Below, piece by piece: positions 392-14,799 of a stretch of DNA of 64,000 bases (position 1 is the stretch's first letter; each line of letters starts with the position of its first letter). The stretch lies in assembly GCF_900109575.1 (NCBI RefSeq), contig NZ_FOAF01000008.1, positions 62,001 to 126,000 of the forward strand, given 5' to 3'. The DNA comes from Olivibacter domesticus. Lineage in GTDB: Bacteria > Bacteroidota > Bacteroidia > Sphingobacteriales > Sphingobacteriaceae. The notes under the pieces were generated by a model that made no database searches, was not told the origin of the DNA, and saw only the letters and a program-made list of their open reading frames with translations. A program made the position numbers and the translations under genes.

Positions 392-958
392 CTAGTTGTT
401 TGGTACTTCTTCTTGTTCGAATACTTTACCAAATTGCTCGAACGTGTTTCCTGCGGCATTGATCGCTAGCGCCTCTTCTCCCTCACTACTTGCGTTTTTA
501 TTTAGAACCTCAATGAACAAAGCCCATTTTTGTCCTGTTCCCTCACCATAACCAGAAAAAAAGGAAATGCCTTTAGTAATACCTAATTTTTCAAGCATCT
601 TCACAATAATGCTTCCCCCCATAATTGATCCCTCCAATACATAAAGGGCACCAAGCGCTTCCTGGATATTGCCAATAGCTGGAGCATGTGCTTCCGGTGA
701 ATCGTCGATAGTTCCTTTTAATGCTTCGATGTCATTTCTGAGATAAGAAGAATTTCTCCTATCGCCATAATCTGGTAAAACCTCTTTGGTAATATATGGT
801 TTAATAGCTTTTTCTACCGCATTGAAATAGGCATAGAAGTATTTAAGAAAATCTGCATAATCGCCTTCATTTTTTATAGCTTTTAATTTCCTGACAACAA
901 CTCCCTCCAATTGTTGATGAGGTGCTTTAGTTGCTTCTTTTATTTTTGTACTTAACAT
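392..958 (-). CDS. Biliverdin-producing heme oxygenase family protein
   Basis: The 188-residue protein has the expected features of a soluble bacterial heme oxygenase. His14 in the N-terminal helix (ATKAPHQQLE) is the probable proximal heme ligand, and residues 103-116 (GALYVLEGSIMGGS) form the glycine-rich distal helix that kinks over the heme. It would cleave heme to biliverdin, CO and free iron in the cytoplasm, using an electron donor not encoded nearby. The gene stands alone and ends at a bidirectional terminator. About 150 bases upstream lies a direct-repeat operator almost identical in layout to that before the TonB heme receptor at 10750, which ties it to the heme uptake genes. The related BphO-type proteins feed bacteriophytochromes, but no phytochrome is visible here. 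Confidence 0.88.
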   Translation of the reverse strand: MLSTKIKEATKAPHQQLEGVVVRKLKAIKNEGDYADFLKYFYAYFNAVEKAIKPYITKEVLPDYGDRRNSSYLRNDIEALKGTIDDSPEAHAPAIGNIQEALGALYVLEGSIMGGSIIVKMLEKLGITKGISFFSGYGEGTGQKWALFIEVLNKNASSEGEEALAINAAGNTFEQFGKVFEQEEVPNN

Positions 959-2054: not shown

Positions 2055-2351
2055 TTAATTTTCCGTCTCGTTACTATTCAGCCTATAACACACGTCCATG
2101 ACCTGTTTGTGTCCTTCTTTCATTACCAATCCGATCTCAATAAACAACCTCATATTAGTGTACACCGTTGCCCAGGAAATCCCATGACTTAGACGTAAAT
2201 CCATCCAAAAGGCCTCAATATTTTTAATTTTTCTTTGCTCACACAGTGCCTCAATCAATACCTTCCGTTGTGAACTGATTATATGCCCTCTATTTGTCAA
2301 GGTCTTATAGATTTTTTCACACTGTTGTTTTGTTTTTGTGGATTGTTTCAT
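2055..2351 (-). CDS. Truncated Fur-family regulator (winged-helix domain only), 98 aa
   Basis: The protein reads as the N-terminal winged helix of a ferric uptake regulator: CEKIYKTLTNRGHIISSQRK is followed by an ISWATVYTNMRLFIEIGLV recognition region, equivalent to the Fur segment S.aTVYrtL..l...Glv. A full Fur protein has about 140-160 residues. Here the frame stops soon after the wing, so the HHDH metal site, the C-terminal CxxC motifs and most of the dimerisation domain are absent. It could bind DNA without metal sensing, or interfere with full-length Fur. It follows the S41 protease gene by 29 bases on the same strand and is probably the last gene of the heme receptor run. The family call is moderately firm and the function is inferred. 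Confidence 0.72.
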   Translation of the reverse strand: MKQSTKTKQQCEKIYKTLTNRGHIISSQRKVLIEALCEQRKIKNIEAFWMDLRLSHGISWATVYTNMRLFIEIGLVMKEGHKQVMDVCYRLNSNETEN

Positions 2352-2380
2352 AAAATGGTTGTTTCGGTTAGTTATAAACG

Positions 2381-3679
2381 TTATTTTAATTTGAATCGCT
2401 GTTTATATATTGGCGCGTAATTCTCAGGGGGGAGCTTCTGTGTTATAGGCGAAGCTTGTTTGTCTGTATACCCTTGATAGTTATATACAGAAGATAGGTC
2501 TCTTGAAAAATTGTTTGAAAAGGAAGTGTTTTTTATTGCCGTAAGTGCCGTATGCAAACCAGCCTCCTCTAGGTTACCCAACGAAGCATGTGCAGAAAGA
2601 GCTTGTTCCACATCTGGCTGCATACCGTCAAAATAATCACACCAACCTGTCGCATTTTGTAAAGTAAAACTGCTGAGATAAAGTGTATAGTTATCAATAT
2701 GGATACCAAAGAAACCTACCGGTTTACCATATGTTTTTTCGCCGATCAACTGTACATTAAGATAGGGTTTTAAGCTGCTTATCAATAATTCGCTGGCAGA
2801 GGCAGTATTACCCGAAACAATAAAATAAACTGTTTGTATAGATGTTAGATCACCGGCTTTGATAAAGCGATTCGTATTAGCACTTTTGCTGAAATCTACA
2901 TCGGCCATAGTGGCCAACCGTCCTTTATAAGTTACTGTATTACCATTTGTGTTGCGATACAATTGGTTTTTCAATATTGTTGCCTTTCCATTTTGCATAA
3001 GGCTATTGAATTGTTCGCTATACATTACTTTACCCGTTAAGTTGACTGGGACAATCAAGTTGGCCAAATATTCAGCGGTCTCTACGTAACCGCCACCATT
3101 GGATCGAAGGTCAATAATGATATTTGTAATCTCTTCGGCAGCAAAAGACACAAAAATACCATCTAACTGTTCTTTGCAGCTAACAAGCGTAGGAAAAGAT
3201 GTGAGGGCTATATAGCCTACTTTTTTATTATCTATTTCGATTATTTTATATACTGGTATAACATCAGAAGAAATGCCTGAAATTGCAGCAATACTGGTTG
3301 CACTCCTATTGGTATTTCCTTGGTCCAAATAAGAATATTTAGGCCTACCCACATATAAAGGCAATTCATAAGAACTGCCTGTTTGCGGGTTGCTATTCAT
3401 CTGCGAAATATCATACAGCTCGGTTTTATAAGCCGTCAGCTCGGGGTTGATTGTTCCATAACGGCTCCGTGGATCGAAATCGGCGTAGCTTGGCAAGACT
3501 TCGTTCCATAGATAGACTTGCTTTGCATAGAGAAAAATAGAGTCTAAAGTGAACTCCATACGGGTGCCTGTGATAGGAGAAGCTAAGTCATCTATTAGCA
3601 CTTGTTTTTCCTTTTTGCAGGAAACAGCAAGAAGTAATGAGATATATAGCAAATATATGGCAGCTTTATTTACTTTCAT
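2381..3679 (-). CDS. S41 family (C-terminal-processing-type) peptidase lipoprotein
   Basis: A lipoprotein signal ends at Cys21 (LLLAVSCKKEK), placing the 432-residue protein in an outer or inner membrane leaflet. Residues about 150-330 form the S41 catalytic core, including IIIDLRSNGGG (187-197), TASASELL with the probable nucleophile Ser294, and GEKTYGKPVG with the general base Lys319. The 25-residue Ser-Lys spacing equals that of E. coli Prc. I see only a weak or no PDZ domain, so substrates may be selected by the N-terminal region. It lies between a DUF5018-like lipoprotein and the mini-Fur gene at the end of the heme locus. A role in trimming or opening heme-carrying proteins is possible but purely inferred; many Bacteroidota S41 lipoproteins have unknown substrates. 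Confidence 0.85.
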   Translation of the reverse strand: MKVNKAAIYLLYISLLLAVSCKKEKQVLIDDLASPITGTRMEFTLDSIFLYAKQVYLWNEVLPSYADFDPRSRYGTINPELTAYKTELYDISQMNSNPQTGSSYELPLYVGRPKYSYLDQGNTNRSATSIAAISGISSDVIPVYKIIEIDNKKVGYIALTSFPTLVSCKEQLDGIFVSFAAEEITNIIIDLRSNGGGYVETAEYLANLIVPVNLTGKVMYSEQFNSLMQNGKATILKNQLYRNTNGNTVTYKGRLATMADVDFSKSANTNRFIKAGDLTSIQTVYFIVSGNTASASELLISSLKPYLNVQLIGEKTYGKPVGFFGIHIDNYTLYLSSFTLQNATGWCDYFDGMQPDVEQALSAHASLGNLEEAGLHTALTAIKNTSFSNNFSRDLSSVYNYQGYTDKQASPITQKLPPENYAPIYKQRFKLK

Positions 3680-3723
3680 TATATGGTCTTAGCTTATGCC
3701 TTGGCATCCAATATATTCACTCA

Positions 3724-4722
3724 TTAATCCACAATACGAGTAGTATAAGGAGCGGTATAATTTTGCGAGAATTTCGAAGCCCTCGCGCCTGTGCTTAATC
3801 GTTTTCCATAGATAACAAGGCGGGTAATACTTCCGGCAGGTACGTCGTTACCCAATTGATAAGTTAACTTTGTATCCGTTGCACGCGCGAGCGGTGCCTG
3901 ATAAGTCACCGTCGTACTTGCTTCAGCAGGCAGTATCGTCAGTTGTACATAATAATCTTCGTAAGAGAAATATTGCTTATCGATAGGGGAGGCGTCATAC
4001 GTAAAACTAATAATAGACCCTTTTTGAATAGTTGTGTTCTCCTGATCAAGACTATATCCGATATTGGAAAGCCCTGTACTACTTAATGATGCTTTAAAAG
4101 GACCGTAGTTGAAACGTTGGCTTCCCGAAATTAGCTGAACCTCATATTCTTCATCTAACAACACAGAACCATCAATTGGAACCAAAGCACTAATATAGAC
4201 TGAGCTCAGTGCTTCTTTGCTTTCCAACTTTGTAGGTATAAGTCGTTGTTCCTTATCGATCAGATTAACCTTTATTCGATTTGTATCTGTGCTGAAATAT
4301 TGGCCTCTTATCCGTATTGTACTACCTAATGTTATAAAAGAAGGAGGAGTTGTCACAGTAGCCGATGGTTGATTGGAGGCCACTTTAAGATAGTATGCCT
4401 TCGTGTGGCCGTTTTCCGAAACCACTGTATAAGCAAGTCCCGAGGTGAAGGGCGTTTTCTCTCCTGAGGCCGGGCTTATTGTGGCATTCTTAGAAATAAT
4501 GATGTTTGGACTAATACTGTCGGGTATCACCTGTAGAGGAGGCCAGTACAGCCAGATACTATCATTCACTAAGGCGGCCTTCAAGGTATTGCCTTCCTGA
4601 TCTAAGATCGTAAATTCTTCAATATCGTTATAAGGATAGTCTGCATATTCCTTTTTGCAAGAGCTGAAAGTCGTCATGACTAACGCAACCAGGCAACAGC
4701 CAATAAATGTTGAAAAACGCAT
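3724..4722 (-). CDS. Lipoprotein with DUF5018-like N-terminal domain and IPT/TIG-like region
   Basis: The 332-residue precursor has a lipoprotein signal (LVMTTFSSCKKEY). Next comes a domain of the type often seen at the start of Bacteroidota surface lipoproteins: an IEEFTILDQEG strand, PDSISPNIIISKNATISP, and a SGLAYTVVSENGHTKAYYL close, all typical of DUF5018/DUF4971-like beta-sandwiches. A segment starting PPSFITLGSTIRIRGQYF resembles an IPT/TIG immunoglobulin-like fold. No catalytic motif is visible. It probably sits on the cell surface as a binding or scaffold partner of the heme receptor. Between it and the preceding gene lies a GC-rich hairpin pair, so its transcription may be partly uncoupled from the genes above. 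Confidence 0.7.
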   Translation of the reverse strand: MRFSTFIGCCLVALVMTTFSSCKKEYADYPYNDIEEFTILDQEGNTLKAALVNDSIWLYWPPLQVIPDSISPNIIISKNATISPASGEKTPFTSGLAYTVVSENGHTKAYYLKVASNQPSATVTTPPSFITLGSTIRIRGQYFSTDTNRIKVNLIDKEQRLIPTKLESKEALSSVYISALVPIDGSVLLDEEYEVQLISGSQRFNYGPFKASLSSTGLSNIGYSLDQENTTIQKGSIISFTYDASPIDKQYFSYEDYYVQLTILPAEASTTVTYQAPLARATDTKLTYQLGNDVPAGSITRLVIYGKRLSTGARASKFSQNYTAPYTTRIVD

Positions 4723-4808
4723 TGTAGGTTATTCTAATTTGTTAATGAATATTATCAAGGGTTTAAGCACCTTGAAATGTCTTTAAATAATGTACCTTTG
4801 TAGAAAAT

Positions 4809-4882
4809 GAACAGCCCGGCCGGCATCTTCACATGGGACGGACTGTTCGGGTAAAGTCCCGTGGCATCTAAAATGCTGCGGG
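4809..4882. other. Two GC-rich hairpins in the heme lipoprotein run
   Basis: GAACAG (4809-4814) pairs with CTGTTC (4843-4848) around an imperfect inner helix. TCCCG-TG-GCAT (4857-4867) pairs with ATGC-TG-CGGGA (4873-4883) around a CTAAA loop. The GC content contrasts sharply with the AT-rich flanks. On the minus strand these could form an intercistronic terminator or processing site after the gene at 4917. The second hairpin keeps G-U pairs only if the plus strand is transcribed. A small RNA is therefore possible but unproven. Confidence 0.45.
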
Positions 4883-4916
4883 ATAAGAGCCTAAAGTATT
4901 ATTACCTGTTTTTTAA

Positions 4917-5519
4917 CTATTCTACTATTCCATAATTAAAAGTATATACACCGCGATTGTTCGTTGCAGTGCCTTCACCCACAGCATTAGTTGCCTGAAA
5001 AGCATACGTAGTAGTACCATTGCTCGCAAATAATACTACATTATTTACTTTTTCCACAACATGGGTAGTTTCATTATAGCCCCACCAACCATTTGGCGTA
5101 GATGTAGTACTCGTGTTTCTTCCTAAAGAAGATACTGTTGTAGCGGCATTGTAATGAGATAAATCGATGTCGGCTAAATCACCAGTGTAATTTGGTAGAT
5201 ACTTAAGTGTATAACCCGAGGCCGGAAATATAGTCGAATTATTTGTGCTAGTGAAACGTACATGCCAGGTACCGGTTCCAGTGGTATTGGTTGCGCCTGT
5301 AGATAAATTCAAATATACAGTACCAAAAACTGCCGGACCAGAAGCAGGATTGCCATAGTTACCGGTAACCACCACTGAGTTGACCGGATCAACAACAGCC
5401 GTCTCGTTATTAAGACTTAAATTTGCTGCATCGTCATTTTTTTTATCGCAAGAGACGATAAAAAAAGTTAATACGAGGAAGGCGATCCCCTTAGTCAAAT
5501 TGTTTATTGTTTTTTTCAT
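4917..5519 (-). CDS. Divergent HmuY-like lipoprotein
   Basis: This 200-residue lipoprotein (signal ending FFIVSCDKK) shows the skeleton of an HmuY protein in weakened form. WHVRFTSTNNSTIFPASG (residues about 84-101) aligns with the HmuY WDIaFTGtYNs segment, and GWWGYNETTHVV followed by VVLFASNGTTTYAFQ corresponds to the GWYxYnxxTHvv...vRtadGkYaKl end of the family. HmuY proteins capture heme outside the cell and pass it to the TonB receptor. The methionine or histidine heme ligands cannot be assigned with confidence, so it may have changed ligand. It is third among the putative heme-binding lipoproteins here. The call rests on motif order and context, not a search. Confidence 0.55.
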   Translation of the reverse strand: MKKTINNLTKGIAFLVLTFFIVSCDKKNDDAANLSLNNETAVVDPVNSVVVTGNYGNPASGPAVFGTVYLNLSTGATNTTGTGTWHVRFTSTNNSTIFPASGYTLKYLPNYTGDLADIDLSHYNAATTVSSLGRNTSTTSTPNGWWGYNETTHVVEKVNNVVLFASNGTTTYAFQATNAVGEGTATNNRGVYTFNYGIVE

Positions 5520-5596
5520 TCTTTCTTATTTTTATGATTTGTTGTTTGTTCATCTTTAGGCTCCTATTTCTTTATTGGATGAACCATTATTTTTAT

Positions 5597-6607
5597 TTAT
5601 TGACTTGTAATAGTAAGTGGCACATCTACTTTTAATTCCGGCCAATCACCAAATTGGAAAGTAAATGGAACCCCTTCGTATGCTCCCACTGGGAAATCTT
5701 GAGGCACTTTCAATACTAAATTTGCTCTTGTAGAACCATCTTGGATAGCGAAATCATAAGTTTTACCGTTGAGAAGAGCGGTAACTGATTGAGGATTAAT
5801 GAATAGTAGTTGCGGGCTGCTATTTGGAAGAAAGCTGATCTCTCCACCCTGTATAGCTACTTTAGGGCTCCAGATAGGTGCCAATAGCGGCTCTAAGTAT
5901 ACAACATGTAATGGAACTGGTGTCAATTCTTTATGGCCCAAAAATCCAATTTCAATATCATAGTATCCGCTATCGGCTTCTGTTGGAATGGTTATACCAT
6001 ACAAATAGTAATCCCGTATAAAAGGTAGGGACGAGCCAGTTGAGGGTTCTATACCAGTAGAAGATAGGTTTGGCCTCAAGGTGTCCCCAGTAGTTCTGTG
6101 AATCATTGCAAAATTAAGTGTAGCAATGCTTGTAGATTGAAAATTACCATACAGGAAAGAAAAGGGCATCCCAGAATTATTTACACCCAGCAGATCACCA
6201 GGAGCCCCGGTAGGTAATTCATCCGACCACACTAAAGAAAGATCTGGAGTATTTTGCTGTGTAATAATTAGTTTATAAGTCCGCCTACTGCCGTCCGCGG
6301 CACGTACTGCATAGGTTTGAGATTCATTGTCCAATTCCACCGGGAGCATTTCGGTTTCCAAAATGGCACCTGACTCAACGGTAATTTCTGGCTGAATAAC
6401 GACCATATTCAGATAGAAAGGTACATATACAGTAATCGTATTTTCGATATTGTTAACGGCTCCATATATGAAAGTGTCTTGTAAGTTTACCACCTTGTAT
6501 TCAGTTATTCTATTCTGCGGCACAGCCTCGAAAGGCTCTGTTTTCGTACATGCCCAAAAACTTATGGCCACCAGCCATAACAACATGAATAGGCTTTTAT
6601 TTTTCAT
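5597..6607 (-). CDS. Surface lipoprotein with DUF5018-like domain
   Basis: A 336-residue lipoprotein with its lipobox at AISFWACTK. The first 130 residues (ITEYKVVNLQD, VIQPEITVESGAILETE, SQTYAVRAADGSRRTYKLII) follow the same DUF5018/DUF4971-like beta-sandwich plan as the lipoprotein at 3724. The rest is beta-rich without recognisable catalytic residues, ending in a domain like VLKVPQDFPVGAYEGVPFTF. It is 17 bases downstream of an hmuY gene, so almost certainly co-transcribed. I infer a surface accessory or hemoprotein-binding role; nothing in the sequence shows heme contact directly. Confidence 0.65.
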   Translation of the reverse strand: MKNKSLFMLLWLVAISFWACTKTEPFEAVPQNRITEYKVVNLQDTFIYGAVNNIENTITVYVPFYLNMVVIQPEITVESGAILETEMLPVELDNESQTYAVRAADGSRRTYKLIITQQNTPDLSLVWSDELPTGAPGDLLGVNNSGMPFSFLYGNFQSTSIATLNFAMIHRTTGDTLRPNLSSTGIEPSTGSSLPFIRDYYLYGITIPTEADSGYYDIEIGFLGHKELTPVPLHVVYLEPLLAPIWSPKVAIQGGEISFLPNSSPQLLFINPQSVTALLNGKTYDFAIQDGSTRANLVLKVPQDFPVGAYEGVPFTFQFGDWPELKVDVPLTITSQ

Positions 6608-6624
6608 GATCGTAAGTGTAGATT

Positions 6625-7437
6625 TTATTTAATTTCAAATTTGGTACTACCCGCGGGTACAATTACATATTCGAACGTGAAGAACATGTGCGGTGTGTCT
6701 CTAAACATCTGATCACGGTTGAATGTATCCTTATAGCACGAGATCATTTTAATCTTTGCGTAATCTCCTTTTGCCGTACGCGCAATAATTGTGCGTCCCG
6801 AAATTTCCTTAGTAGTTCCATTAGCTTTTATGCTAATAGGCTCTCCTATGGCATAAGCAACATGCTTTTTCTCTTCACTTCCATCTCCTACCAGCGTGCC
6901 TCCAAAATCATAGAGGTACCAGCCTATTCCTTCGCCAAAAGCGCCATTAATGTCTGTGCCAAACACTCCCGCACCATTTTTAAACTCACTATCCACCGGC
7001 ACATCGACTACTTCATCAAAGCTCTTTTCTACAATCATAACTCCTCCTTTTCCTGGGCCTTGAAATCCTAAGTTCGTTGCATCTGTATTATTGTTCCCAC
7101 CAAAGAAACTGTTATAAAGTCCTGTTAAAGAAATATCCCAAAAGGTCGTTTTGGCGTAACTAAGCGGTTGTTCCTTTTTATATTCTAAACTGAATAGAAC
7201 GGCTGTTTTTGCTTCGGTCGGATTTTCATCATCTGTCTCTACCGCCAAATTCTCTACCCTTTGTAAGGTGTAATAGGGTACTGTAGCGCCTGTTTCCTCA
7301 GGCACTTCTTCTTCTGGCTGCGGATCATTTTTTTTATCCGAGCATGCTGTGACTAAGTTTAGCAGCATCCAGCTACATAGTAGTACGCGAACTATTGAGG
7401 AAATTGTACCCTTTGATTGATTGCTTTTAACATTCAT
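6625..7437 (-). CDS. hmuY: HmuY family heme-binding lipoprotein (first copy)
   Basis: The 270-residue lipoprotein (lipobox NLVTACSDK) carries the full HmuY pattern. FWDISLTGLYNSFFGGNN is followed by GKGGVMIVEKSFDEVVDVP, GWYLYDFGG, GRTIIARTAKGDYAKIKMISCY and a closing FFTFEYVI. HmuY hemophores bind heme in a beta-sandwich and hand it to the partner TonB receptor. The long acidic linker after the lipid anchor (PQPEEEVPEETG) suggests display on the cell surface. It lies 39 bases after the second HmuY gene, in the receptor run. Having two complete paralogues side by side suggests different affinities, ligands or hemoprotein sources. Confidence 0.88.
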   Translation of the reverse strand: MNVKSNQSKGTISSIVRVLLCSWMLLNLVTACSDKKNDPQPEEEVPEETGATVPYYTLQRVENLAVETDDENPTEAKTAVLFSLEYKKEQPLSYAKTTFWDISLTGLYNSFFGGNNNTDATNLGFQGPGKGGVMIVEKSFDEVVDVPVDSEFKNGAGVFGTDINGAFGEGIGWYLYDFGGTLVGDGSEEKKHVAYAIGEPISIKANGTTKEISGRTIIARTAKGDYAKIKMISCYKDTFNRDQMFRDTPHMFFTFEYVIVPAGSTKFEIK

Positions 7438-7476
7438 TTTGTATATTGTATAAGGTGATTAAATTCAATATTTCTA

Positions 7477-8235
7477 TTATTGTGTGTTAAGATTTTTGCT
7501 TCCATCCTGTTGTACGAAATACCGAAACGTATAATAGGGAGCAGGCCAATTGAGATCTGATACAGTTGGTGGGTTGCCTTTATAGACGTTGATCAGCTCA
7601 AGTTTGGCGTATTTACCATCCGCCAATCGGATAACATATATTCTGTTTTTAATAGGTACAACTAGGTGGGTATTTAGGCTGTAATTGAACCAACCACTGG
7701 AGTTTGGTCCAGATGACCAGCCTATTTTACTGATCTCGCTTTGGTTAAATATGTCATCAGCAGGTGCCTCTGTGACTGAGCTATAAAGCTGATCGTATCT
7801 TACTATCGCAGTATTTGTTGCGGGTCCTCCATATCCTGGATTTGATTCGTCATTCGCATTGTTTACATAGACCTCACTGTTATAGGGGCCGGTAAATGCG
7901 AGATCCCATTCACCTGTTTTCAAATACCTCGCGGAATCTGCGGCATTACGTATCCAAATCTGTCTTTTGTCGCTGAAACGGTATAAGAAAATATAAAACG
8001 GTCGTTTTTCTTTCCCGTCTACCCCGTCAGACATAGAGGCATTGGTATCACCAGCCAAATCATATATAGCCGTACTCTTTCCGTCTTCATAGCCTGGAGT
8101 AATTTCCTCATTATTTTTACTGCAGCCGGTACTGAACAAGATACTTATGAAGAGGTATAAGAAGAGCCGTCTATCAGCATCCAATAGCCAATTCAAATAT
8201 CGTAAGCACCAGCATCTCGATTTTGTCGTTTTCAT
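7477..8235 (-). CDS. hmuY: HmuY family heme-binding lipoprotein (second copy)
   Basis: This 252-residue protein has a long N-terminal extension before its lipobox (ILFSTGCSKN, Cys38). It shows the family signature clearly: WDLAFTGPYNSEVYVNN, YGGPATNTAIVRYDQLYSSVTEAP, GWFNYSLNTHLVVP, YVIRLADGKYAKLELINVYK and PYYTFRYFVQQDG. It is the gene closest to the TonB receptor (170 bases downstream), the usual hmuR-hmuY order. The protein would sit on the outer membrane surface and deliver heme to the receptor. The N-terminal extension may indicate a later true start, but no in-frame ATG lies closer to the signal core. Confidence 0.9.
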   Translation of the reverse strand: MKTTKSRCWCLRYLNWLLDADRRLFLYLFISILFSTGCSKNNEEITPGYEDGKSTAIYDLAGDTNASMSDGVDGKEKRPFYIFLYRFSDKRQIWIRNAADSARYLKTGEWDLAFTGPYNSEVYVNNANDESNPGYGGPATNTAIVRYDQLYSSVTEAPADDIFNQSEISKIGWSSGPNSSGWFNYSLNTHLVVPIKNRIYVIRLADGKYAKLELINVYKGNPPTVSDLNWPAPYYTFRYFVQQDGSKNLNTQ

Positions 8236-8404
8236 GTTATTAATTAGTTGTTCTTATTTAGTTGTGAGTTACGAGTTGTGAGTTGTCAGGATGTTTGAAT
8301 AATCACTACTCCCTTTCATTCATTTATTATACATTTTGGTCTGTAAGCTTTACGCTATCCACTCTTTGCTTATTCAAGATTTATCGTTCATAACTCTTCA
8401 TTCA

Positions 8405-10750
8405 TCACTTAAAAAATCGATAGGTTATTCCTGCTAGCACCACTCGACCCAATTGTCCGGGCATCAGATAATCTGTATAGTCGGCTATGTTTTCAGCAGT
8501 GATTTGTAAAGCCAAATGTTTTTTAAATATTTTTTTCTCCACGGAAGCATTGAATAAAAAGAAACCATTTACAAAAGTGTCATAACGGTCTATGTAGTAA
8601 TTTCCATTTGCATCTTCAAAGGGGTATTTACCGCGATAATTCACCCGAAATGTAAGTCCTACGTCCCAGGGCTTGTAGTTATAGAAAATCCGCAGATTGG
8701 CCATATGCCTGGAACGGTTTTCCAGCCCCCAATAATCTGCTGTCTTAGAACGGAACGTTTCCCCTGTTGCCGGATTTCGTAGATTGTAATAGGGCCAATT
8801 ACCCGTTCGAATACTGTCTTTTACACTTTGATCTTTAGATAGCAGGTATTGATAGCCGAGTGAAACATCCAAACCAGGCAAGGGCTTATAAGAAACAGAG
8901 GCTTCCAGCCCTTTGTTGTTAACTTTGGGAAGATTTAAATAGGAATAAATCATTTGTCCGTCTGTTGCCGTAGCTACCTGAAAGCTGTTGATCTGATTTT
9001 TTATATGATGATAAAAAGCGCTCAGTTCTACCTGCCATTTACTCGAAGGACTTATTGTAGCAGTCAAGTTAAAGGTATTACTCTGTTCGGCTTGCAAACC
9101 GTCTTGTTGCAACTTATTGAAAGTATAATTCCGTAATTCACTCAACTGACCCGCGTCCCGCATAGCCAATAACTGTGTTCTGGCGATATCGGCGCCTAAT
9201 ACCGTATAACCAACCAATGGGTTCGTAAATACCTGAAAGCGTTGACGAAAATCAGGTGTTTTAAAACCCGAGCCAATGGCTGCTTTGAAGGTTAAAAATG
9301 CAGCAGGAATATACGTAACTCCTAGATTGGGGTTAAAACGGCCACCATAATTGGCGTGATAATCATAACGACCACCACCCAAAAGCTGCAACTGATCTGT
9401 TAGCTGCCATTCGCCTTGCGTATATACAAATCCATTTTTCATAGAGGGGATATCACCTAGCGAGCGGTCGTTCATCGTTTCTAACAAACCTCCAATACCA
9501 CCTGTTAAGGATAAAGCAGCAATCCGATACGCGAATTGTTGCTCTAGACGGAAAACTGATTGTAAAAAATTGTTCTGCTCTCCTAATGTCCCATTATTCC
9601 ACTCAATTTTGGAGTCCCAGTTGTAATGCGTGAAGTAAAAACGGCTAAGAGATTGCAGACCGTTTTTGTACGTGCTATTTAGATAAGCAGATGCGTTCAG
9701 ATCAGCCTCGTCCATATGATCCTTATATATGTCATTACCATATCCACGTGTCATTACCGATTTGCGCAATCCGTAACGACCACTTATACCTGCACTTGTG
9801 CTTTTGGCTAAGCGATAACGCACACGACCTTGTGAGGTGTAATTATCTGACGGTGGAACCGTAGTACCGCTCGTTTGGTACCGATTGTTTACATTGAACC
9901 CGTCAGTATGATAAAAATTCGCCGACAGATTGGCTTCACCCCGATTAGCGGCAAAGGGTGTTTCTCCTTCTAAGGTGGCGTCCACTATTTTTAATGATCC
10001 GTAACGGATGGAAGCCACTCCCTGTGGTTGTAAGGCCCCATGACGGGTGATTATATTGATTGCACCTCCCATAGCTTCACTGCCGAAAAGACAAGAAGCC
10101 GCCCCTTTAATTATTTCAATGCGTTCAATGTTAGTTACACTGATACGTGACAAATCAAAGCTTCCACCATTGCGTCCCACCATAGGCTGGCCATCAATTA
10201 GAATCATCACATATTCGGATGAAAAACCCTGTAGTTGAACGCCAACGGAGCGGTTTCCTCCAGCAATGTTGTTGACGATAGCAATACCTGTTTGCTCTTT
10301 TAAAATTTCATCGAGCCGCCTGCTGCCCATCAATTCAATTTGTTTACGGCTGATAACCGTTACTGGCATAGCCGAATTTGTCGCAGAAATCAGGTTGTCT
10401 GACTGAACAAGCTTATCATTAACCGATACTTCATTCAAAGTATGTGTGTCCTTCTGCAGTTTTATTTTTATCTGCGCTATCTGGCCTGCGGTAATTTCTA
10501 TAGATTGCTCATAATTCTTATACCCCATATGACTGACAGCTAGTGTATATACACCCGCATATAAATCGGCGATTTGGAAAGACCCGTCTTCCTCAACTTC
10601 CAAGAAATGATTATCTGGGTTTAGGGTTATAGTGGCAGCAGCAATGGCTCTTCCTTCTTCGTCGTAAATAACCCCTTGCAAAGAACCTTTGGTTTGACAA
10701 AATACAGTTAATGGGAATAAGTACAACATCAGTAAGTAAAATTTATACAT
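8405..10750 (-). CDS. hmuR: TonB-dependent heme/hemoprotein receptor, HmuR-like
   Basis: The 781-residue protein has a signal peptide, a CarboxypepD_reg-like domain (about 22-100, GSLQGVIYDEEGRAIAAATI), a plug (about 125-240, with GSRRLDEILKEQTGIAIVNN and GAASCLFGSEAMGGAINIIT) and a 22-strand-type barrel ending in a terminal aromatic (GITYRFFK). It imports heme across the outer membrane using TonB energy. Heme specificity is inferred from the two HmuY genes directly downstream and the divergent hmuTUV transporter. The length is somewhat greater than P. gingivalis HmuR because of the extra N-terminal domain. The promoter region (10751-10944) holds a Fur-like dyad, an AraC-type direct repeat and a second Fur-like half-dyad. 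Confidence 0.88.
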   Translation of the reverse strand: MYKFYLLMLYLFPLTVFCQTKGSLQGVIYDEEGRAIAAATITLNPDNHFLEVEEDGSFQIADLYAGVYTLAVSHMGYKNYEQSIEITAGQIAQIKIKLQKDTHTLNEVSVNDKLVQSDNLISATNSAMPVTVISRKQIELMGSRRLDEILKEQTGIAIVNNIAGGNRSVGVQLQGFSSEYVMILIDGQPMVGRNGGSFDLSRISVTNIERIEIIKGAASCLFGSEAMGGAINIITRHGALQPQGVASIRYGSLKIVDATLEGETPFAANRGEANLSANFYHTDGFNVNNRYQTSGTTVPPSDNYTSQGRVRYRLAKSTSAGISGRYGLRKSVMTRGYGNDIYKDHMDEADLNASAYLNSTYKNGLQSLSRFYFTHYNWDSKIEWNNGTLGEQNNFLQSVFRLEQQFAYRIAALSLTGGIGGLLETMNDRSLGDIPSMKNGFVYTQGEWQLTDQLQLLGGGRYDYHANYGGRFNPNLGVTYIPAAFLTFKAAIGSGFKTPDFRQRFQVFTNPLVGYTVLGADIARTQLLAMRDAGQLSELRNYTFNKLQQDGLQAEQSNTFNLTATISPSSKWQVELSAFYHHIKNQINSFQVATATDGQMIYSYLNLPKVNNKGLEASVSYKPLPGLDVSLGYQYLLSKDQSVKDSIRTGNWPYYNLRNPATGETFRSKTADYWGLENRSRHMANLRIFYNYKPWDVGLTFRVNYRGKYPFEDANGNYYIDRYDTFVNGFFLFNASVEKKIFKKHLALQITAENIADYTDYLMPGQLGRVVLAGITYRFFK

Positions 10751-10762
10751 TCATCTTATTTA

Positions 10763-10785
10763 TTATTTTTAATCATTCTAAATAA
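10763..10785. promoter_or_regulatory. Fur/PerR-like box at the receptor promoter
   Basis: The 23 bases match the dyad ATTTAGAATnATTCTAAAT and its flanking TA pairs except for two positions in the left arm (TT for AG). The right half ATTCTAAATAA is exact. The box overlaps or follows the inferred start of the receptor transcript, where a repressor would block it. Assignment to Fur or PerR is by resemblance only. Confidence 0.45.
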
Positions 10786-10790
10786 TAATA

Positions 10791-10854
10791 CAAATGTTGA
10801 GATAATCTGCCAGAAAGGTTGTATGCGAAACGTCTTATTTTGTATGAATTCCGC
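10791..10854 (-). promoter_or_regulatory. Putative AraC direct-repeat operator and -7 box for the heme receptor
   Basis: Half-sites TTGTATGCGAAACGT (10819-10833) and TTGTATGAATTCCGC (10840-10854) are 21 bp apart. On the minus strand AACATTTG (10791-10798) resembles the Bacteroidota -7 box and lies 21 bases from the proximal repeat. I see no TTTG at -33, as expected for a promoter needing an activator. Layout and sequence match the site before heme oxygenase. Confidence 0.6.
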
Positions 10855-10890
10855 CATAAAAGCGAGAATGTGCTGAATATGAAGAGTTAG

Positions 10891-10913
10891 TATTTTGTAA
10901 TTATTCTAAATAA
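10891..10913. promoter_or_regulatory. Fur/PerR-like half-dyad before hmuT
   Basis: ATTCTAAATAA at 10903-10913 repeats the right half of the box at 10763, with a weaker left arm (TATTTTGTAAT). It lies 31 bases before the hmuT start codon, so a bound repressor would cover the promoter or leader. Confidence 0.35.
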
Positions 10914-10944
10914 CAGTTGTTTTGTGAGCGTGATTTAGAAATTT

Positions 10945-11781
10945 ATGAAAAGACGATTTTTTTTAACGATCCTGACAGGGTTTATCGTTACCTATTGTTA
11001 TGGCATTCCGAACAGAATTATAACGCTTAGCGGTGCATTAACAGAAACGGTAGATGCACTGGGCTTAGGGAGCAAGATAGTTGCGACAGACGTGACAAGC
11101 ATTTATCCAACTTATGTGAAACAGCTACCGAAGGTGAGCCGTAATCGATCAGTTTCTACAGAGGGGCTGCTGTCATTCACCCCAGACATCATACTGGCTC
11201 CTGAAGGGCATATCAGTAAGGAGATACAATATCAACTAAAGATGTCTGGTATACAGCTTGTTATGTTTAAACAAGAGTATAGTGCAGCTGGGGCGGTTGA
11301 CTTTATCCAATCTGTGGCGAATGCAGTTGGTGTGCCCGAGAAGGGAAAGATGTTAGCCGAAAAAACTGAAGAACGACTCCAAGTGGCTATTGCGAAAATA
11401 AAGAAATCTAAACAAGTCCAGAAGAAAGTACTATTCATTTATGCACGTGGAACGGGCACTATGAGTGTTGCAGGGAAAGGCAGCAGCATCGATGCTATCA
11501 TCAAGCTGGCAGGAGCACAAAATGCGATTTATGAGTTTTCAGATTTTAAACCCTATACTACGGAGGCCATGGTAAAAGCTGATCCAGATGTTATATTGAT
11601 GTTTGATTTCGGTTTAAGCAGTTTGGGCGGAAAGGCATCTGTTTTGAAGATGCCCGGTATGAAACTTACAAAAGCCGGTAAGAATGAACATATTATAGAT
11701 ATGGATGGTCAATTGCTTACCAATTTCAGTGTGCGTCTGCCTGATGCCATTTTAGCACTTCATCAGGAATTAAGTAGATAG
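10945..11781 (+). CDS. hmuT: Heme ABC transporter substrate-binding protein
   Basis: The 278-residue protein has a cleavable signal peptide (FFLTILTGFIVTYCYG) and the two-lobe cluster A-II binding-protein fold of HmuT/BtuF type. Visible landmarks are RIITLSGALTETVDALGLG, YPTYVKQLPKVSRNRSVSTE, FTPDIILAPEG and, in the second lobe, KKVLFIYARGTGTMSVAGKG. It would carry heme from the outer membrane receptor to the permease. It is the first gene of a tight plus-strand trio (2-base gap to the next), divergent from the receptor. HmuT specificity comes from the neighbourhood; a vitamin B12 or siderophore role is less likely. Confidence 0.87.
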   Translation: MKRRFFLTILTGFIVTYCYGIPNRIITLSGALTETVDALGLGSKIVATDVTSIYPTYVKQLPKVSRNRSVSTEGLLSFTPDIILAPEGHISKEIQYQLKMSGIQLVMFKQEYSAAGAVDFIQSVANAVGVPEKGKMLAEKTEERLQVAIAKIKKSKQVQKKVLFIYARGTGTMSVAGKGSSIDAIIKLAGAQNAIYEFSDFKPYTTEAMVKADPDVILMFDFGLSSLGGKASVLKMPGMKLTKAGKNEHIIDMDGQLLTNFSVRLPDAILALHQELSR

Positions 11782-11783
11782 AA

Positions 11784-12821
11784 ATGAGGAAACTAGCAAT
11801 ATATTGTTTATTAATCTGCAGTTTGTTTTTGGTCATTTTCTCTTCACTCATCTTTGGCGCCATGCACATCCCTATCAAAGAGGTCTTGTCTATATTAAGC
11901 AAGTACCTGGGCTTGCATGATGCGAATGTGAACAATACTTATGAGGGTGTTATCTATATTATAAGGCTTCCGCGTTTATTATTAGGGTTATTAGTTGGAG
12001 CCGCTTTAGGAGTATCTGGTGCGGCCATACAAGGCATCTTTCGCAATCCCCTTGCCGAACCAGGTCTCATAGGTATTTCAGCGGGTGCCTCGTTAATGGC
12101 TGTTATTGTCATCAGCTTGGAATTGAGCCTACTTGCTAGTTTAAGCAATTTATTGGGCTATTATTTATTAGCATTTGGGGCTTTCGTTGGCGCGGGTGTG
12201 GTAGCTTTCCTTGTGTACAATATAGCTAGAACCGATGGAAGGGCGAATGTGGCTACCATGTTATTAGCAGGCATCGCTATTAACGCCTTTGCAGGAGCGT
12301 TAACTGGATTAATAACATACTTGGCCGATGAGCAACAATTACGTACCATTACCTTTTGGATGTTGGGAAGCTTGGGTGGCGCTACGTGGCAAACGGTATG
12401 GAGTGTGATGCCTTTTATTGCTCTTCCCTTAATTGTTCTTCCACTTTTGGGGAAATCACTAAACGCATTTTCTTTGGGGGAGACTCAGGCCAGTATCCTG
12501 GGATTGCGACCGAATAGGGTAAAAACGCAGGTTGTAGTACTCGCTACGCTAGCCGTTGGTGCGTCGGTAGCAGTATCTGGCATAATTGGTTTCGTTGGTT
12601 TGCTAGTACCTCACATTGTTCGTTTAGCAGGGGGTGTTGATCATCGATTTGTGTTGCCGGCCTCTGCACTATTTGGAGCCCTTACCTTAACTTTGGCCGA
12701 TGTATTGGCCCGTAATTTAGCTGCCCCCATCGAATTGCCAATAGGTGTTATCACAGCACTTTTAGGTTCACCTGTTTTCTTATATATACTTATTAAAGAG
12801 AAAAAAAAGCTCTTTAACTAA
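11784..12821 (+). CDS. hmuU: Heme ABC transporter permease (FecCD family)
   Basis: The 345-residue polytopic protein belongs to the FecCD/BtuC permease family, with about ten membrane segments. Characteristic stretches include RLPRLLLGLLVGAALGVSGA (the conserved RLPR entry), IFRNPLAEPGLIGISAGAS (the NPLA..G.iGi.sGA motif) and, near the end, GFVGLLVPHIVRL, which holds the coupling helix to the ATPase. It forms the dimeric channel for heme across the inner membrane. It starts two bases after hmuT and is followed 11 bases later by hmuV, so the three are one operon. Confidence 0.9.
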   Translation: MRKLAIYCLLICSLFLVIFSSLIFGAMHIPIKEVLSILSKYLGLHDANVNNTYEGVIYIIRLPRLLLGLLVGAALGVSGAAIQGIFRNPLAEPGLIGISAGASLMAVIVISLELSLLASLSNLLGYYLLAFGAFVGAGVVAFLVYNIARTDGRANVATMLLAGIAINAFAGALTGLITYLADEQQLRTITFWMLGSLGGATWQTVWSVMPFIALPLIVLPLLGKSLNAFSLGETQASILGLRPNRVKTQVVVLATLAVGASVAVSGIIGFVGLLVPHIVRLAGGVDHRFVLPASALFGALTLTLADVLARNLAAPIELPIGVITALLGSPVFLYILIKEKKKLFN

Positions 12822-12832
12822 TATGATTTAAT

Positions 12833-13678
12833 ATGCTTACCGCCACTGCATTAAACTATAAAATTGGAAAATATTGTCTACTACGTGATGTCAGTTTTCA
12901 GATACAACCCGGAGAGTTTTTGGCCATTCTAGGAGCTAACGGTGCTGGTAAATCTACTTTGATAAATATTCTAAGTGGAGAAAAAAAGCCTAGCTCCGGC
13001 AACGTTTGGCTCTTTAACAAAGAGTTAAACGAATATTTACCACATGAGCTAGCTAAGAAGAGAACGATTCTCCAACAGCACAACAGTGTACAGCTTAGCT
13101 TCTCAGTTGAAGAAGTACTCTTGATGGGGAGATACCCGCATTTTAAACATCGTCCAGGCAAATTTGATTTCATTGTTATAGAGGAAACGATGGAAGTATG
13201 TGGCATTGCACATCTTGCAAAGCGTTCCTATCCCTCCCTTTCTGGTGGAGAACAGCAAAGAGTTCAATATGCACGAATATTATGCCAGATCTGGGATCAA
13301 CCGAAAAGTCTACTACTGATGGACGAACCTGTTGCCGCGCTAGATCCACAATACCAACAACAAACGATGGCGATAGCAAAAGCCTTTAGTACGAGAGGTT
13401 TTATGGTAATTGCTGTATTACATGAAATTAATTTAGCAGCGCAATATGCCGACCGTATCCTGATGTTAAAAGGTGGTCGAAAATGGCTTGATGGCACACC
13501 CATAGAAGTTTTGACACCTGCACATATTTATGCTATTTTTAATACGGATGTTGACGTTATGATAAACAAACAGACTTTGAAACCAATTGTAATACCTAAA
13601 CAGCTAGATCTAGATGTTGGTGGCTTTAACTCCTTATTATCACCTATTTCCGTAGAAAATACGGAGGCTCTTACCTAA
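12833..13678 (+). CDS. hmuV: Heme ABC transporter ATP-binding protein
   Basis: All ABC ATPase motifs are present: Walker A GANGAGKSTL (about 34-43), the signature LSGGEQQRVQYARIL (about 137-151), Walker B SLLLMDEPVAALD and the switch histidine in VIAVLHEINLAAQYADR. The 281 residues match the HmuV/BtuD size. The C-terminal tail beyond the nucleotide-binding domain is not conserved in a way I recognise. It powers the HmuU permease. Its last 8 bases overlap the convergent AraC gene, with no terminator between them, so read-through and transcriptional interference are possible. Confidence 0.92.
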   Translation: MLTATALNYKIGKYCLLRDVSFQIQPGEFLAILGANGAGKSTLINILSGEKKPSSGNVWLFNKELNEYLPHELAKKRTILQQHNSVQLSFSVEEVLLMGRYPHFKHRPGKFDFIVIEETMEVCGIAHLAKRSYPSLSGGEQQRVQYARILCQIWDQPKSLLLMDEPVAALDPQYQQQTMAIAKAFSTRGFMVIAVLHEINLAAQYADRILMLKGGRKWLDGTPIEVLTPAHIYAIFNTDVDVMINKQTLKPIVIPKQLDLDVGGFNSLLSPISVENTEALT

Positions 13679-14642
13679 CATCACTAGGAGCTATGCCAAA
13701 ATATTTCTTAAAAGCTGCACTGAAATTCTGTTGATGGTTATAACCTGTAGCATTCGCTACTTCAGCAATACTTTTGCATGCCTCCAATAAAAGGGAACGA
13801 GCCTTTTCCATACGTACCCTAGTCAAATAGTCATATATAGTAACCGAAAAATAATCTTTAAAAGACTGGCGTAATTTCGATTCGCTCATTCCAATTTCTT
13901 CAGCCAAAGTTCTTTGTGTAGGCGCCTGCGCATAGCGCTCGTCCAATATTGTTCTAGCTTTGAGCAGTTTAATAATGTCGTCGCCCACTAAATGCTCTCT
14001 TTCTTCAGCAAAGCTATCATTTAGCTGCTCTAATTGATAAACTAATAATTCGGATATTTTAGATTCTGTATGAATGCGGCGTAACTCTCCCGTCCTTTTA
14101 TTATCTTTAAGCTCTGAAATAACCTTCAACATTTCATGTGTTACAAACATATCGTCATGAGCAAAAGAGGTATATTCTCCCTTATTTATCTTTTGTACGA
14201 AATCCTCATGTAAAACCGATTCTGGTGCGATTAACTTGAAATAGAAGTCTTTTGATAAAACAACTAAAAAGTAGTCATATTCTGCACCTGATTGAAGCTC
14301 ATAATCTTCCACAAAGGAAGGTATATAACGTACATTATGCCTTCCCCTTCCATGAAATGAGGTTTTAATTTTTCTATTATTATCGTTTCTGTAAAATACA
14401 AACTGACTGGTTACTGTTTCGCCCTCCACCTCTGTATGTATGCGGACTGGTCCTTTAAAGCTCATTTCTGAATATAAAATAAACAAACCGCCAGTAGATA
14501 GCTGATAATTGGACATATGTATTGGATGTCGCTCTATGACGGTCTTTTTTTCATTCAAGGGGCTATTTGGGAGACATATATCAGATATATCTTCAATAAA
14601 TAACCAATCTTGCAAACCTTCTATTTTACTTTTAACTATCAT
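13671..14642 (-). CDS. AraC family regulator, probable heme locus activator
   Basis: A 323-residue protein (from the ATG at 14642; an alternative start at 14678 would add 12 residues). The C-terminal 100 residues are two AraC helix-turn-helix motifs: QRTLAEEIGMSESKLRQSF and IAEVANATGYNHQQNFSAAF, closing KKYFGIAPSDVR. The N-terminal two thirds resembles PchR-type sensory domains, possibly binding a heme- or siderophore-related ligand. It converges with hmuV, overlapping by 8 bases. The phased direct repeats before heme oxygenase and the heme receptor are its most likely binding sites. An ATTCTAAATAA box lies about 50 bases upstream of its start, suggesting iron control of the regulator itself. 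Regulatory targets are inferred. Confidence 0.85.
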   Translation of the reverse strand: MIVKSKIEGLQDWLFIEDISDICLPNSPLNEKKTVIERHPIHMSNYQLSTGGLFILYSEMSFKGPVRIHTEVEGETVTSQFVFYRNDNNRKIKTSFHGRGRHNVRYIPSFVEDYELQSGAEYDYFLVVLSKDFYFKLIAPESVLHEDFVQKINKGEYTSFAHDDMFVTHEMLKVISELKDNKRTGELRRIHTESKISELLVYQLEQLNDSFAEEREHLVGDDIIKLLKARTILDERYAQAPTQRTLAEEIGMSESKLRQSFKDYFSVTIYDYLTRVRMEKARSLLLEACKSIAEVANATGYNHQQNFSAAFKKYFGIAPSDVR

Positions 14643-14684
14643 GGCAAGCACATCTATGCTACAAATATATAAAATCATTTCGTA

Positions 14685-14705
14685 ATTTATACTGATTCTA
14701 AATAA
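14685..14705. promoter_or_regulatory. Fur/PerR-like box before the AraC gene
   Basis: ATTTATACT-G-ATTCTAAAT (14685-14703), extended by AA, differs from the perfect dyad at two left-arm positions. It is the third copy of ATTCTAAATAA in the locus and lies in the short gap between the AraC and ribokinase genes. Confidence 0.4.
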
Positions 14706-14799
14706 TAACCCATAGAGGCCTTACGTAAAAAGAAACCTTAATAACGTGATTTCTGGAAATGTTGTGTTTATTTGTTGTGAATGTTTAACTTGTTCGTGT

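Follow-up and report, generated by a model that had tools for sequence, protein, structure and literature searches.

A recurrent variant of Bacteroidota heme loci carrying an S41 protease lipoprotein, Ig-type lipoproteins and a stand-alone Fur DNA-binding domain

Porphyromonas gingivalis captures heme with the Hmu system (HmuY, HmuR and HmuSTUV), in which a hemophore lipoprotein and a TonB-dependent receptor are under iron control and gingipain proteases work with the hemophore (PMC10100897, PMC10913741; published sources are cited throughout from extracts of their text). P. gingivalis Kgp digests hemoproteins and cuts HmuY from its lipid anchor (PMC10100897), and HmuSTUV are termed proteins of unknown function (PMC10913741). 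The HfpR/HfpY system of Flavobacterium psychrophilum likewise combines an HmuY-like protein with a TonB-dependent receptor and is induced by iron scarcity; the extract of PMC9331221 describes an operon of receptor, DoxX protein and one HmuY-like protein and mentions neither a protease nor immunoglobulin (Ig)-type lipoproteins. An HmuY homologue of Sphingobacterium spiritivorum is named in the legend of a published supplement. For other ligands, the levan and dextran utilisomes of Bacteroides, machines of polysaccharide utilization loci (PULs), co-encode a TonB-dependent barrel, surface-binding lipoproteins and a degrading enzyme (PMC7618045), and in B12 uptake by Bacteroides, BtuB–BtuG joins a TonB-dependent transporter to a ligand-binding lipoprotein (PMC10404256). 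Here, we analyze a heme locus of Olivibacter domesticus, contained in a 64-kb stretch of contig NZ_FOAF01000008.1 (64,000 nucleotides; the window) from a 6.8-Mb genome, in which genes for a protease lipoprotein of family S41 and for a protein ending after the Fur DNA-binding domain (mini-Fur) follow those of an HmuR-like receptor and five other lipoproteins.

The locus is a distinct variant of Bacteroidota heme loci that is real, recurrent and, by prediction, iron-regulated. Compared with P. gingivalis, its protease gene lies within the operon and encodes a serine S41 lipoprotein instead of a gingipain, five lipoproteins besides the protease replace the single one, a heme oxygenase gene is included, and HmuTUV is a binding-protein ABC importer. 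The HmuS/CobN-type gene is absent from the locus, its one copy lying on another contig (C10) of the same genome, and six of the nine relatives tested have none. In comparison with PUL machines, no SusC/SusD pair was recognized, a protease takes the place of the glycoside hydrolase, and the system is known here from gene order and folds; the model of the lipoprotein LP336 has its best fold match in the surface protein SGBP-B of a PUL, and that of its N-terminal domain resembles a levan utilisome chain. BtuB–BtuG differs in lipoprotein family, ligand and extra enzymes. The winged-helix DNA-binding domain is common to Fur, PgFur and mini-Fur, the last of which ends after it. Among the papers listed for HmuY, hemophores, S41 proteases and truncated Fur proteins, we found none about this gene set, judging by title and start of abstract.

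Gene content of the locus

From 10750 down to 392 on the minus strand, the genes encode HmuR, HmuY1, HmuY2, LP336, LP200, LP332, the S41 protease, mini-Fur and heme oxygenase, separated by 169, 39, 17, 77, 194, 44, 29 and 1,096 bp. HmuTUV is transcribed the opposite way from 10945, divergently from hmuR, and is followed by a gene for an AraC-type regulator (13671–14678, minus strand; PF12833, E = 2.2e-24). All the genes that an earlier note on this DNA had named are indeed open reading frames where it had placed them, and its accessory genes after the receptor do share one strand; HmuTUV, however, lies on the other. The heme oxygenase, the missing PDZ domain of the protease, the recurrence of mini-Fur and the AraC gene had all been overlooked, and the end point of that note (14642) falls inside the AraC gene.

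The receptor (8405–10750, minus strand; 781 residues) matches PF00593 (E = 2.5e-35) and PF07715 (E = 2.5e-23), and its assignment to heme rests on gene context. Of the lipoproteins encoded next on the same strand, HmuY1 (7477–8235) exceeds the cut-off of the HmuY family PF14064 (28.9 versus 27 bits), while HmuY2 (6625–7437) remains below it with 15 bits on its own, its family profile matching PDB entry 8b6a at 1.1e-9; the earlier description of "two full HmuY" thus holds outright for the first and by profile for the second. LP200 (4917–5519), described earlier as a divergent HmuY-like protein, has no Pfam match but bears out that description through a profile–profile match to HmuY1 (probability 97.9, E = 3.1e-13) that runs partly across the signal peptide; in view of this match, an independent fold for LP200 was set aside. 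Both HmuY2 and LP200 are therefore putative members of the HmuY family by profile only. At the level of sequence alignment, HmuY1 and HmuY2 each have one invariant histidine (His190, 26/26, and His192, 20/20, respectively); the corresponding column of LP200 holds a histidine in 6 of 26 sequences.

On the plus strand, HmuT (10945–11781; PF01497, E = 6.6e-30) is a periplasmic binding protein resembling IsdE and BtuF at scores below the cut-offs of those families, HmuU (11784–12821; PF01032, E = 1.2e-92) is a FecCD permease most similar to BtuC, and HmuV (12833–13678) is an ATPase above the cut-off of the heme-ABC equivalog NF010068 (294.6 versus 261 bits). The earlier note took the roles of HmuTUV as established in the family; the proteins here are of the binding-protein/FecCD/ABC kind, so that no role carries over by name from P. 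gingivalis. The heme oxygenase (392–958, minus strand; 188 residues) matches PF01126 (E = 4e-15, 56.6 versus 23 bits) and PDB entries 1sk7 (pa-HO, 7.5e-13) and 1j77 (HemO, 3.5e-8) and, lying on the same strand beyond mini-Fur, extends the locus to this position.

LP336 (5597–6607, minus strand), with an N-terminal beta domain followed by Ig-like domains, and LP332 (3724–4722, minus strand), of Ig/TIG type, are homologous to each other (hhalign probability 99.9, E = 1.8e-36). The earlier note had called them two DUF5018-like lipoproteins: a related pair they are, but we rejected that name, as LP332 scores below the DUF5018 cut-off (PF16410, 16.5 versus 38.2 bits, E = 0.0041; 22.4 bits for the LP332 of genome G119) and LP336 has no Pfam match at all. 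LP336, the sole Ig lipoprotein modeled, is predicted to be a chain of small beta domains (mean predicted local distance difference test score, pLDDT, 88.6). Foldseek ranks SGBP-B of a Bacteroides ovatus PUL first (6e57; E = 2.6e-10, but template modeling (TM) score 0.23 and root-mean-square deviation (rmsd) 18); compared by VIA, the two give Z = 8.4 over 235 residues at an rmsd of 15.3, as expected of like domains in another arrangement. For the first domain, the matches are BT_2081, with Z = 10.9, and, with Z = 10.8, chain G of an entry for the levan utilisome. Because many proteins have Ig-like folds, and unrelated Ig chains come near the 6e57 match (E = 1e-7, Z up to 8.2), the modeled fold would indicate a kind of architecture rather than a ligand.

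Recurrence of the gene set and properties of the S41 protease

To place the locus among its relatives, we used 151 genomes of the family and 20-kb stretches around loci, which cut some loci short; genomes and loci are cited by our own G and L numbers. Genes were labeled by their best BLAST matches to the window's proteins or to those of relatives, a few reference proteins having first been named by operon position and then checked by BLAST (for example, LP200 of G141: E = 1e-46 against LP200 of G131 and 2.7e-4 against that of the window). The gene set recurs in Olivibacter, in Pedobacter (where HmuR has often moved), in Sphingobacterium and in Pararcticibacter, with variants in Mucilaginibacter and Chitinophaga. 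Because it recurs across genera, we rejected chance or misannotation as its origin. The co-occurrence of S41, Ig-type lipoproteins and HmuY in related genomes, on which the earlier note had staked its proposal, is thereby borne out.

Matches to the S41 protease are widespread at E = 1e-20 (107 of 151 genomes), and full-length matches to its short form occur in nine. Six of these nine genomes carry a full hmu operon (G000, G015, G063, G075, G131 and G141); in the remaining three, the gene stands beside LP336–LP200–LP332 and an AraC gene (G119), beside lipoproteins with a MACPF domain (G144) or elsewhere (G064). In the 39 S41 loci with heme context, the window excluded, HmuR is found in 36, heme oxygenase in 34, LP336-type and LP332-type lipoproteins in 31 each, HmuT in 30, LP200 in 24 and AraC in 21, and at least four lipoproteins of these families in 37. 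The heme label required an HmuY or LP336 neighbor, so the other gene contents are the informative ones.

The protease itself (2381–3679, minus strand; 432 residues) belongs to S41 as the earlier note proposed: it matches PF03572 (E = 3.3e-19) and carries a lipobox with Cys21 and a Ser–Lys dyad, which we take, from motif and spacing, to be Ser294 and Lys319. All three residues are invariant in the 33 short S41 proteins aligned (of 42 short rows in the tree below). An AlphaFold model (pLDDT 80.3) is most similar to an S41 structure of Bacteroides fragilis (3k50; Foldseek E = 3.2e-17, TM score 0.44 by query length). C-terminal processing proteases of the Prc/CtpA type have a PDZ domain between N-domain and core, which gates and aims them. 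The short S41 proteins depart from this type: 0 of 33 match any PDZ model at E = 0.05, compared with all 11 of the long heme-locus forms, and the alignment places the gap between N-domain and core. The loss of the domain would be in keeping with an enzyme that has given up recognition of particular C-termini.

We built a tree of 84 S41 sequences, comprising the window, 80 named loci and three others; the loci are the best 80 of a contig search, so that those near this S41 are over-represented in the 20-kb stretches, in the tree and in the heme-context counts. Forty sequences are labeled heme (including the window), 10 MACPF and 34 other, the corresponding numbers among the 42 short forms being 29, 10 and 3. 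The heme label changes seven times on the tree, compared with a mean of 28.3 after shuffling. The short forms fall into a group of 38 rows (support 100/98) and one of four rows joined to the long form L083 (95/96), both leaving, with other long heme-locus forms, an unresolved fork within a mostly heme-linked group (93/93, below the star level). The PDZ domain was apparently lost about twice within this group, judging from the branching of the sequences. Four Chitinophaga-type heme-locus S41 proteins branch elsewhere with weak support.

The S41 proteins with MACPF neighbors nest within the heme-locus group. In Pedobacter and Sphingobacterium, lipoproteins combining MACPF with a DUF5648-like end adjoin short S41 genes (L034, 5719–7197 and 7750–9177; further loci L042, L043, L050, L052, L053, L058, L062, L064 and L066); two of these lipoproteins were domain-scanned, and the others were assigned by BLAST to those two. 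A gene for a di-heme cytochrome c peroxidase (CCP_MauG; L065, L067, L068 and L069; L039, 10866–11606; L038, 8724–9473) directly precedes the S41 gene in hmu operons of Sphingobacterium type and also the stand-alone S41 gene of G064.

Fur boxes and the mini-Fur protein

Words common to the divergent hmu intergenic regions assemble into a palindrome that equals, except for a free middle base, the sequence ATTTAGAATTATTCTAAAT, a predicted Fur box of Riemerella anatipestifer; in that species, Fur binds promoter fragments that contain it (PMC5609570). Our own consensus was built on a set that includes the window; independent support comes from the published flavobacterial box. At a threshold of 13 of 18 positions, a match occurs in 38 of the 43 intergenic regions, compared with 6.35 after shuffling. 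In the entire window there are three sites of at least 15 of 18 (Markov mean 0.17): before hmuR (10765–10783, 16/18), before hmuT (10893–10911, 15/18) and between araC and a divergent open reading frame at 14746 (14685–14703, 16/18). Among relatives, the 300 bp upstream of araC contain a site of at least 15 of 18 in 10 of 15 cases; the same holds for 1 of 25 heme oxygenase genes and 1 of 38 S41 genes. From these sites, Fur is predicted to repress hmuR, hmuT and araC at high iron. Before the window's mini-Fur and heme oxygenase genes we found no box of 15/18, and these two may be transcribed from hmuR or from an unrecognized promoter. Scans of the window for sigma-70 promoters (41 versus 41.8 in shuffles) and for terminator-like sequences (15 versus 11.6) were uninformative.

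Mini-Fur (2055–2351, minus strand; 98 residues) scores 23.4 bits with the FUR profile PF01475, just above the cut-off of 23.1, over profile positions 3–75 of 121, as befits the Fur DNA-binding-domain protein anticipated by the earlier note. The C-terminal dimerization and metal domain of the family is missing, and all 14 aligned members stop after the DNA-binding winged helix. Its relatives in L045, L063, L123, L125, L127, L137 and L138 also exceed the FUR cut-off, while that of L035 has no match. A profile of the 14 members finds six places above 100 bits in the 151 genomes. Four lie within runs of hmu and heme oxygenase genes (G000, G086, G116 and G131); G019 holds the other two, one adjoining heme oxygenase and one 5.5 kb beyond, after genes with TIG and fasciclin domains. 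The canonical Fur proteins of the same genomes lie at other places and score 48–53 bits with this profile; that of the window's genome, with 167 residues, is likewise encoded elsewhere. Two weaker matches, of 106–108 residues, stand beside other FecCD/ABC-type importer genes (G116:C1 and G086:C7).

We mapped 53 loci that contain an HmuY-like gene; 13 of them have an open reading frame for a Fur DNA-binding domain, which in six Pedobacter loci stands instead at the end of hmuTUV. As the other 12 of the 13 loci supplied the model's own members, these counts speak to placement and not to abundance. Within the genus the gene is patchy: the window has an intact copy, G015 (one of the 13) a relic with a frameshift, and in G063, which belongs to Olivibacter, none was found. 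The relic lies between the S41 and heme oxygenase genes (L033, 5605–5791) and could be an assembly error. Outside the family, among 395 genomes of the class, the window's own genome alone gave a match at E = 1e-16, a strict cut for a model built on the family. We dropped a loss of the recognition-helix arginine of Fur as a distinguishing trait, since the genome's own full-length Fur seems to be without it too. Mini-Fur is probably, though we hold this with low confidence, a stand-alone DNA-binding domain that tunes the iron control of a Fur-controlled operon; a stand-alone regulator, a competitor at Fur half-sites and a decaying copy are possible alternatives.

Between the mini-Fur and heme oxygenase genes lies an array, open in several reading frames, of 5.5 tandem copies of an 84-bp repeat (1278–1735, found by TRF) with a 21-bp sub-period. 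Repeats of 21 bp also occur in the equivalent gap of G015 (L033, 5935–5976 and 6171–6216); none were found in L032 (11900–12900).

A proposed role for the locus and competing explanations

The locus is probably an iron-repressed operon for the utilization of heme and hemoproteins in which the S41 protease serves the hemophores. The lipoproteins would gather around the TonB-dependent receptor, the HmuY proteins would capture heme and pass it to HmuR, HmuTUV would carry it into the cytosol, and the heme oxygenase would open it and free the iron, steps suggested by the families to which these proteins belong. The S41 lipoprotein could contribute either by breaking down hemoproteins, to which we give somewhat less than an even chance, or by cutting HmuY and other lipoproteins of the operon from their anchor, which is possible but on the unlikely side. 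Kgp of P. gingivalis sets an equal precedent for each role (PMC10100897). The loss of the PDZ domain mildly favors the former and the MACPF neighbors the latter. From the gene order, the earlier note suggested that a complex at the cell surface could let the protease open hemoproteins; this arrangement may be one form of such service.

A rival account, which we hold less likely than not, confines S41 to processing: it would trim or shed HmuY-type lipoproteins, and elsewhere MACPF-type ones, from the outer membrane and never touch hemoproteins. Its close kin stand beside quite different lipoproteins, those with MACPF and DUF5648, so that the lipoprotein neighbor and not heme is the common factor, and the presence of S41 follows that of the complete set of lipoproteins and not that of HmuY by itself. 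There is precedent in P. gingivalis, where limited proteolysis by Kgp sets HmuY free of its lipid anchor (PMC10100897) and soluble HmuY is present in the medium (PMC2873494). The loss of the PDZ domain, however, would be unexpected for a precise processing enzyme, and some loci hold the same or nearly the same lipoproteins and no S41 (G081, G125 and, without LP200, G119:C2).

Returning to an S41 protease that serves the hemophores of a heme operon, several findings weigh against it. The receptor falls below the cut-offs of the curated heme-receptor models (TIGR01785, 106.0 versus 316.85; TIGR01786, 105.7 versus 323.75). Among relatives, a Fur box of 15/18 occurs in the 300 bp upstream of the gene in only 10 of 23 cases for hmuT and 9 of 24 for hmuR; in many Pedobacter loci, another gene precedes HmuR. 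Five of 26 aligned LP200 relatives, in Sphingobacterium, have no lipobox cysteine; in L065, L067, L068 and L069 a signal peptide is present with no cysteine in the first 45 residues, and these proteins may be soluble instead of lipid-anchored. MACPF lipoproteins are the neighbors of ten close S41 relatives, and three short ones lie in other settings, for which reason we rejected S41 as a heme-specific enzyme. In some Bacteroidota, acidic residues after the lipid cysteine roughly indicate export to the surface. Their mean number is 0.88 in short heme S41 proteins, 0.70 in LP336, 0.80 in other S41 proteins, 1.78 in HmuY1 and 1.49 in HmuY2, some starts having been misplaced by the lipobox finder; this signal does not mark S41 or LP336 as surface-exported, which for S41 weighs against a direct attack on hemoproteins outside the cell.

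Also adverse is a survey anchored on HmuY1, whose profile matches 35 family genomes; 17 with only weaker matches were left out of the mapping, and the remaining 18 hold 20 strong loci (E = 6.6e-59 or better). S41 lies in the operon at six of these loci and is absent from 14, so that heme uptake does not need it; the idea of S41 as a constant partner of HmuY, or as an obligate part of HmuY loci, was therefore abandoned. In favor of the proposed role, S41 goes with the five-lipoprotein set: this set is present at eight of the 20 loci, and S41 occurs at six of these eight and at none of the 12 without it (Fisher P = 7e-4, uncorrected for kinship). Among the six, the HmuY1 gene of G015 is cut by a contig end, and the LP200 of G141 was named by position, its nearest relatives having no clear lipobox; G081 and G125 have all five lipoproteins and no S41. 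S41 is thus an accessory component, a feature of enlarged heme loci and not of their core. Enlargement takes other forms as well. Heme operons with four to six HmuY-like genes (L056, L072, L073, L074, L076, L078, L079 and L080) also have S41, mostly without Ig lipoproteins, LP336 and LP332 types not being found in seven of these eight. Other enlarged loci have no S41 (L123 in G086, L127 in G116 and L129 in G119:C3) and combine two HmuR genes with HmuY-like proteins of 403–463 residues beside LP336 and LP332 types.

The figure of 6 in 20, the commonness of S41 matches in the family and the patchiness of mini-Fur within the genus would also suit an ordinary Bacteroidota Hmu locus, in which S41 and the Ig lipoproteins are acquired general accessory genes that add little. 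We consider this unlikely, as the gene set recurs across genera, the heme label clusters non-randomly on the S41 tree, the dyad is intact in every short form aligned and 37 of 39 heme-context S41 loci carry at least four of the lipoproteins. That the ligand is another metal-tetrapyrrole such as cobalamin, as the receptor's top NCBIfam row (TonB-B12, 131.5 bits against a cut-off of 599.7), the BtuC-like HmuU and a CobN-family gene in the genome, though on another contig, might hint, is very improbable given the HmuY proteins, the heme oxygenase in 34 of 39 loci, the score of HmuV and the Fur boxes.

The capture of heme in P. gingivalis works with gingipains, which the extracts cited above do not list among its Hmu proteins. 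Here, in environmental Bacteroidota, the heme operon itself includes the protease gene, which follows Fur boxes found by prediction. This suggests that the plan of a receptor with helpers, used for complex sugars, is also applied to heme. In its boldest and rather doubtful form, the proposal is a "hemoprotein utilisome", in which the TonB-dependent heme receptor would nucleate an assembly at the surface in which hemophores and SGBP-like Ig arms are joined by an S41 protease, lacking PDZ, that strips heme from bound hemoproteins, all under Fur control, with mini-Fur, retained in heme and iron operons of the family, adjusting that control from within. The recurrence of a Fur protein made of the DNA-binding domain alone provides a simple setting in which to ask what one half of a well-known regulator is capable of. 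If S41 does feed the hemophores, the locus would link the receptor-plus-lipoprotein machines for sugars and B12 to the use of protein-bound heme.

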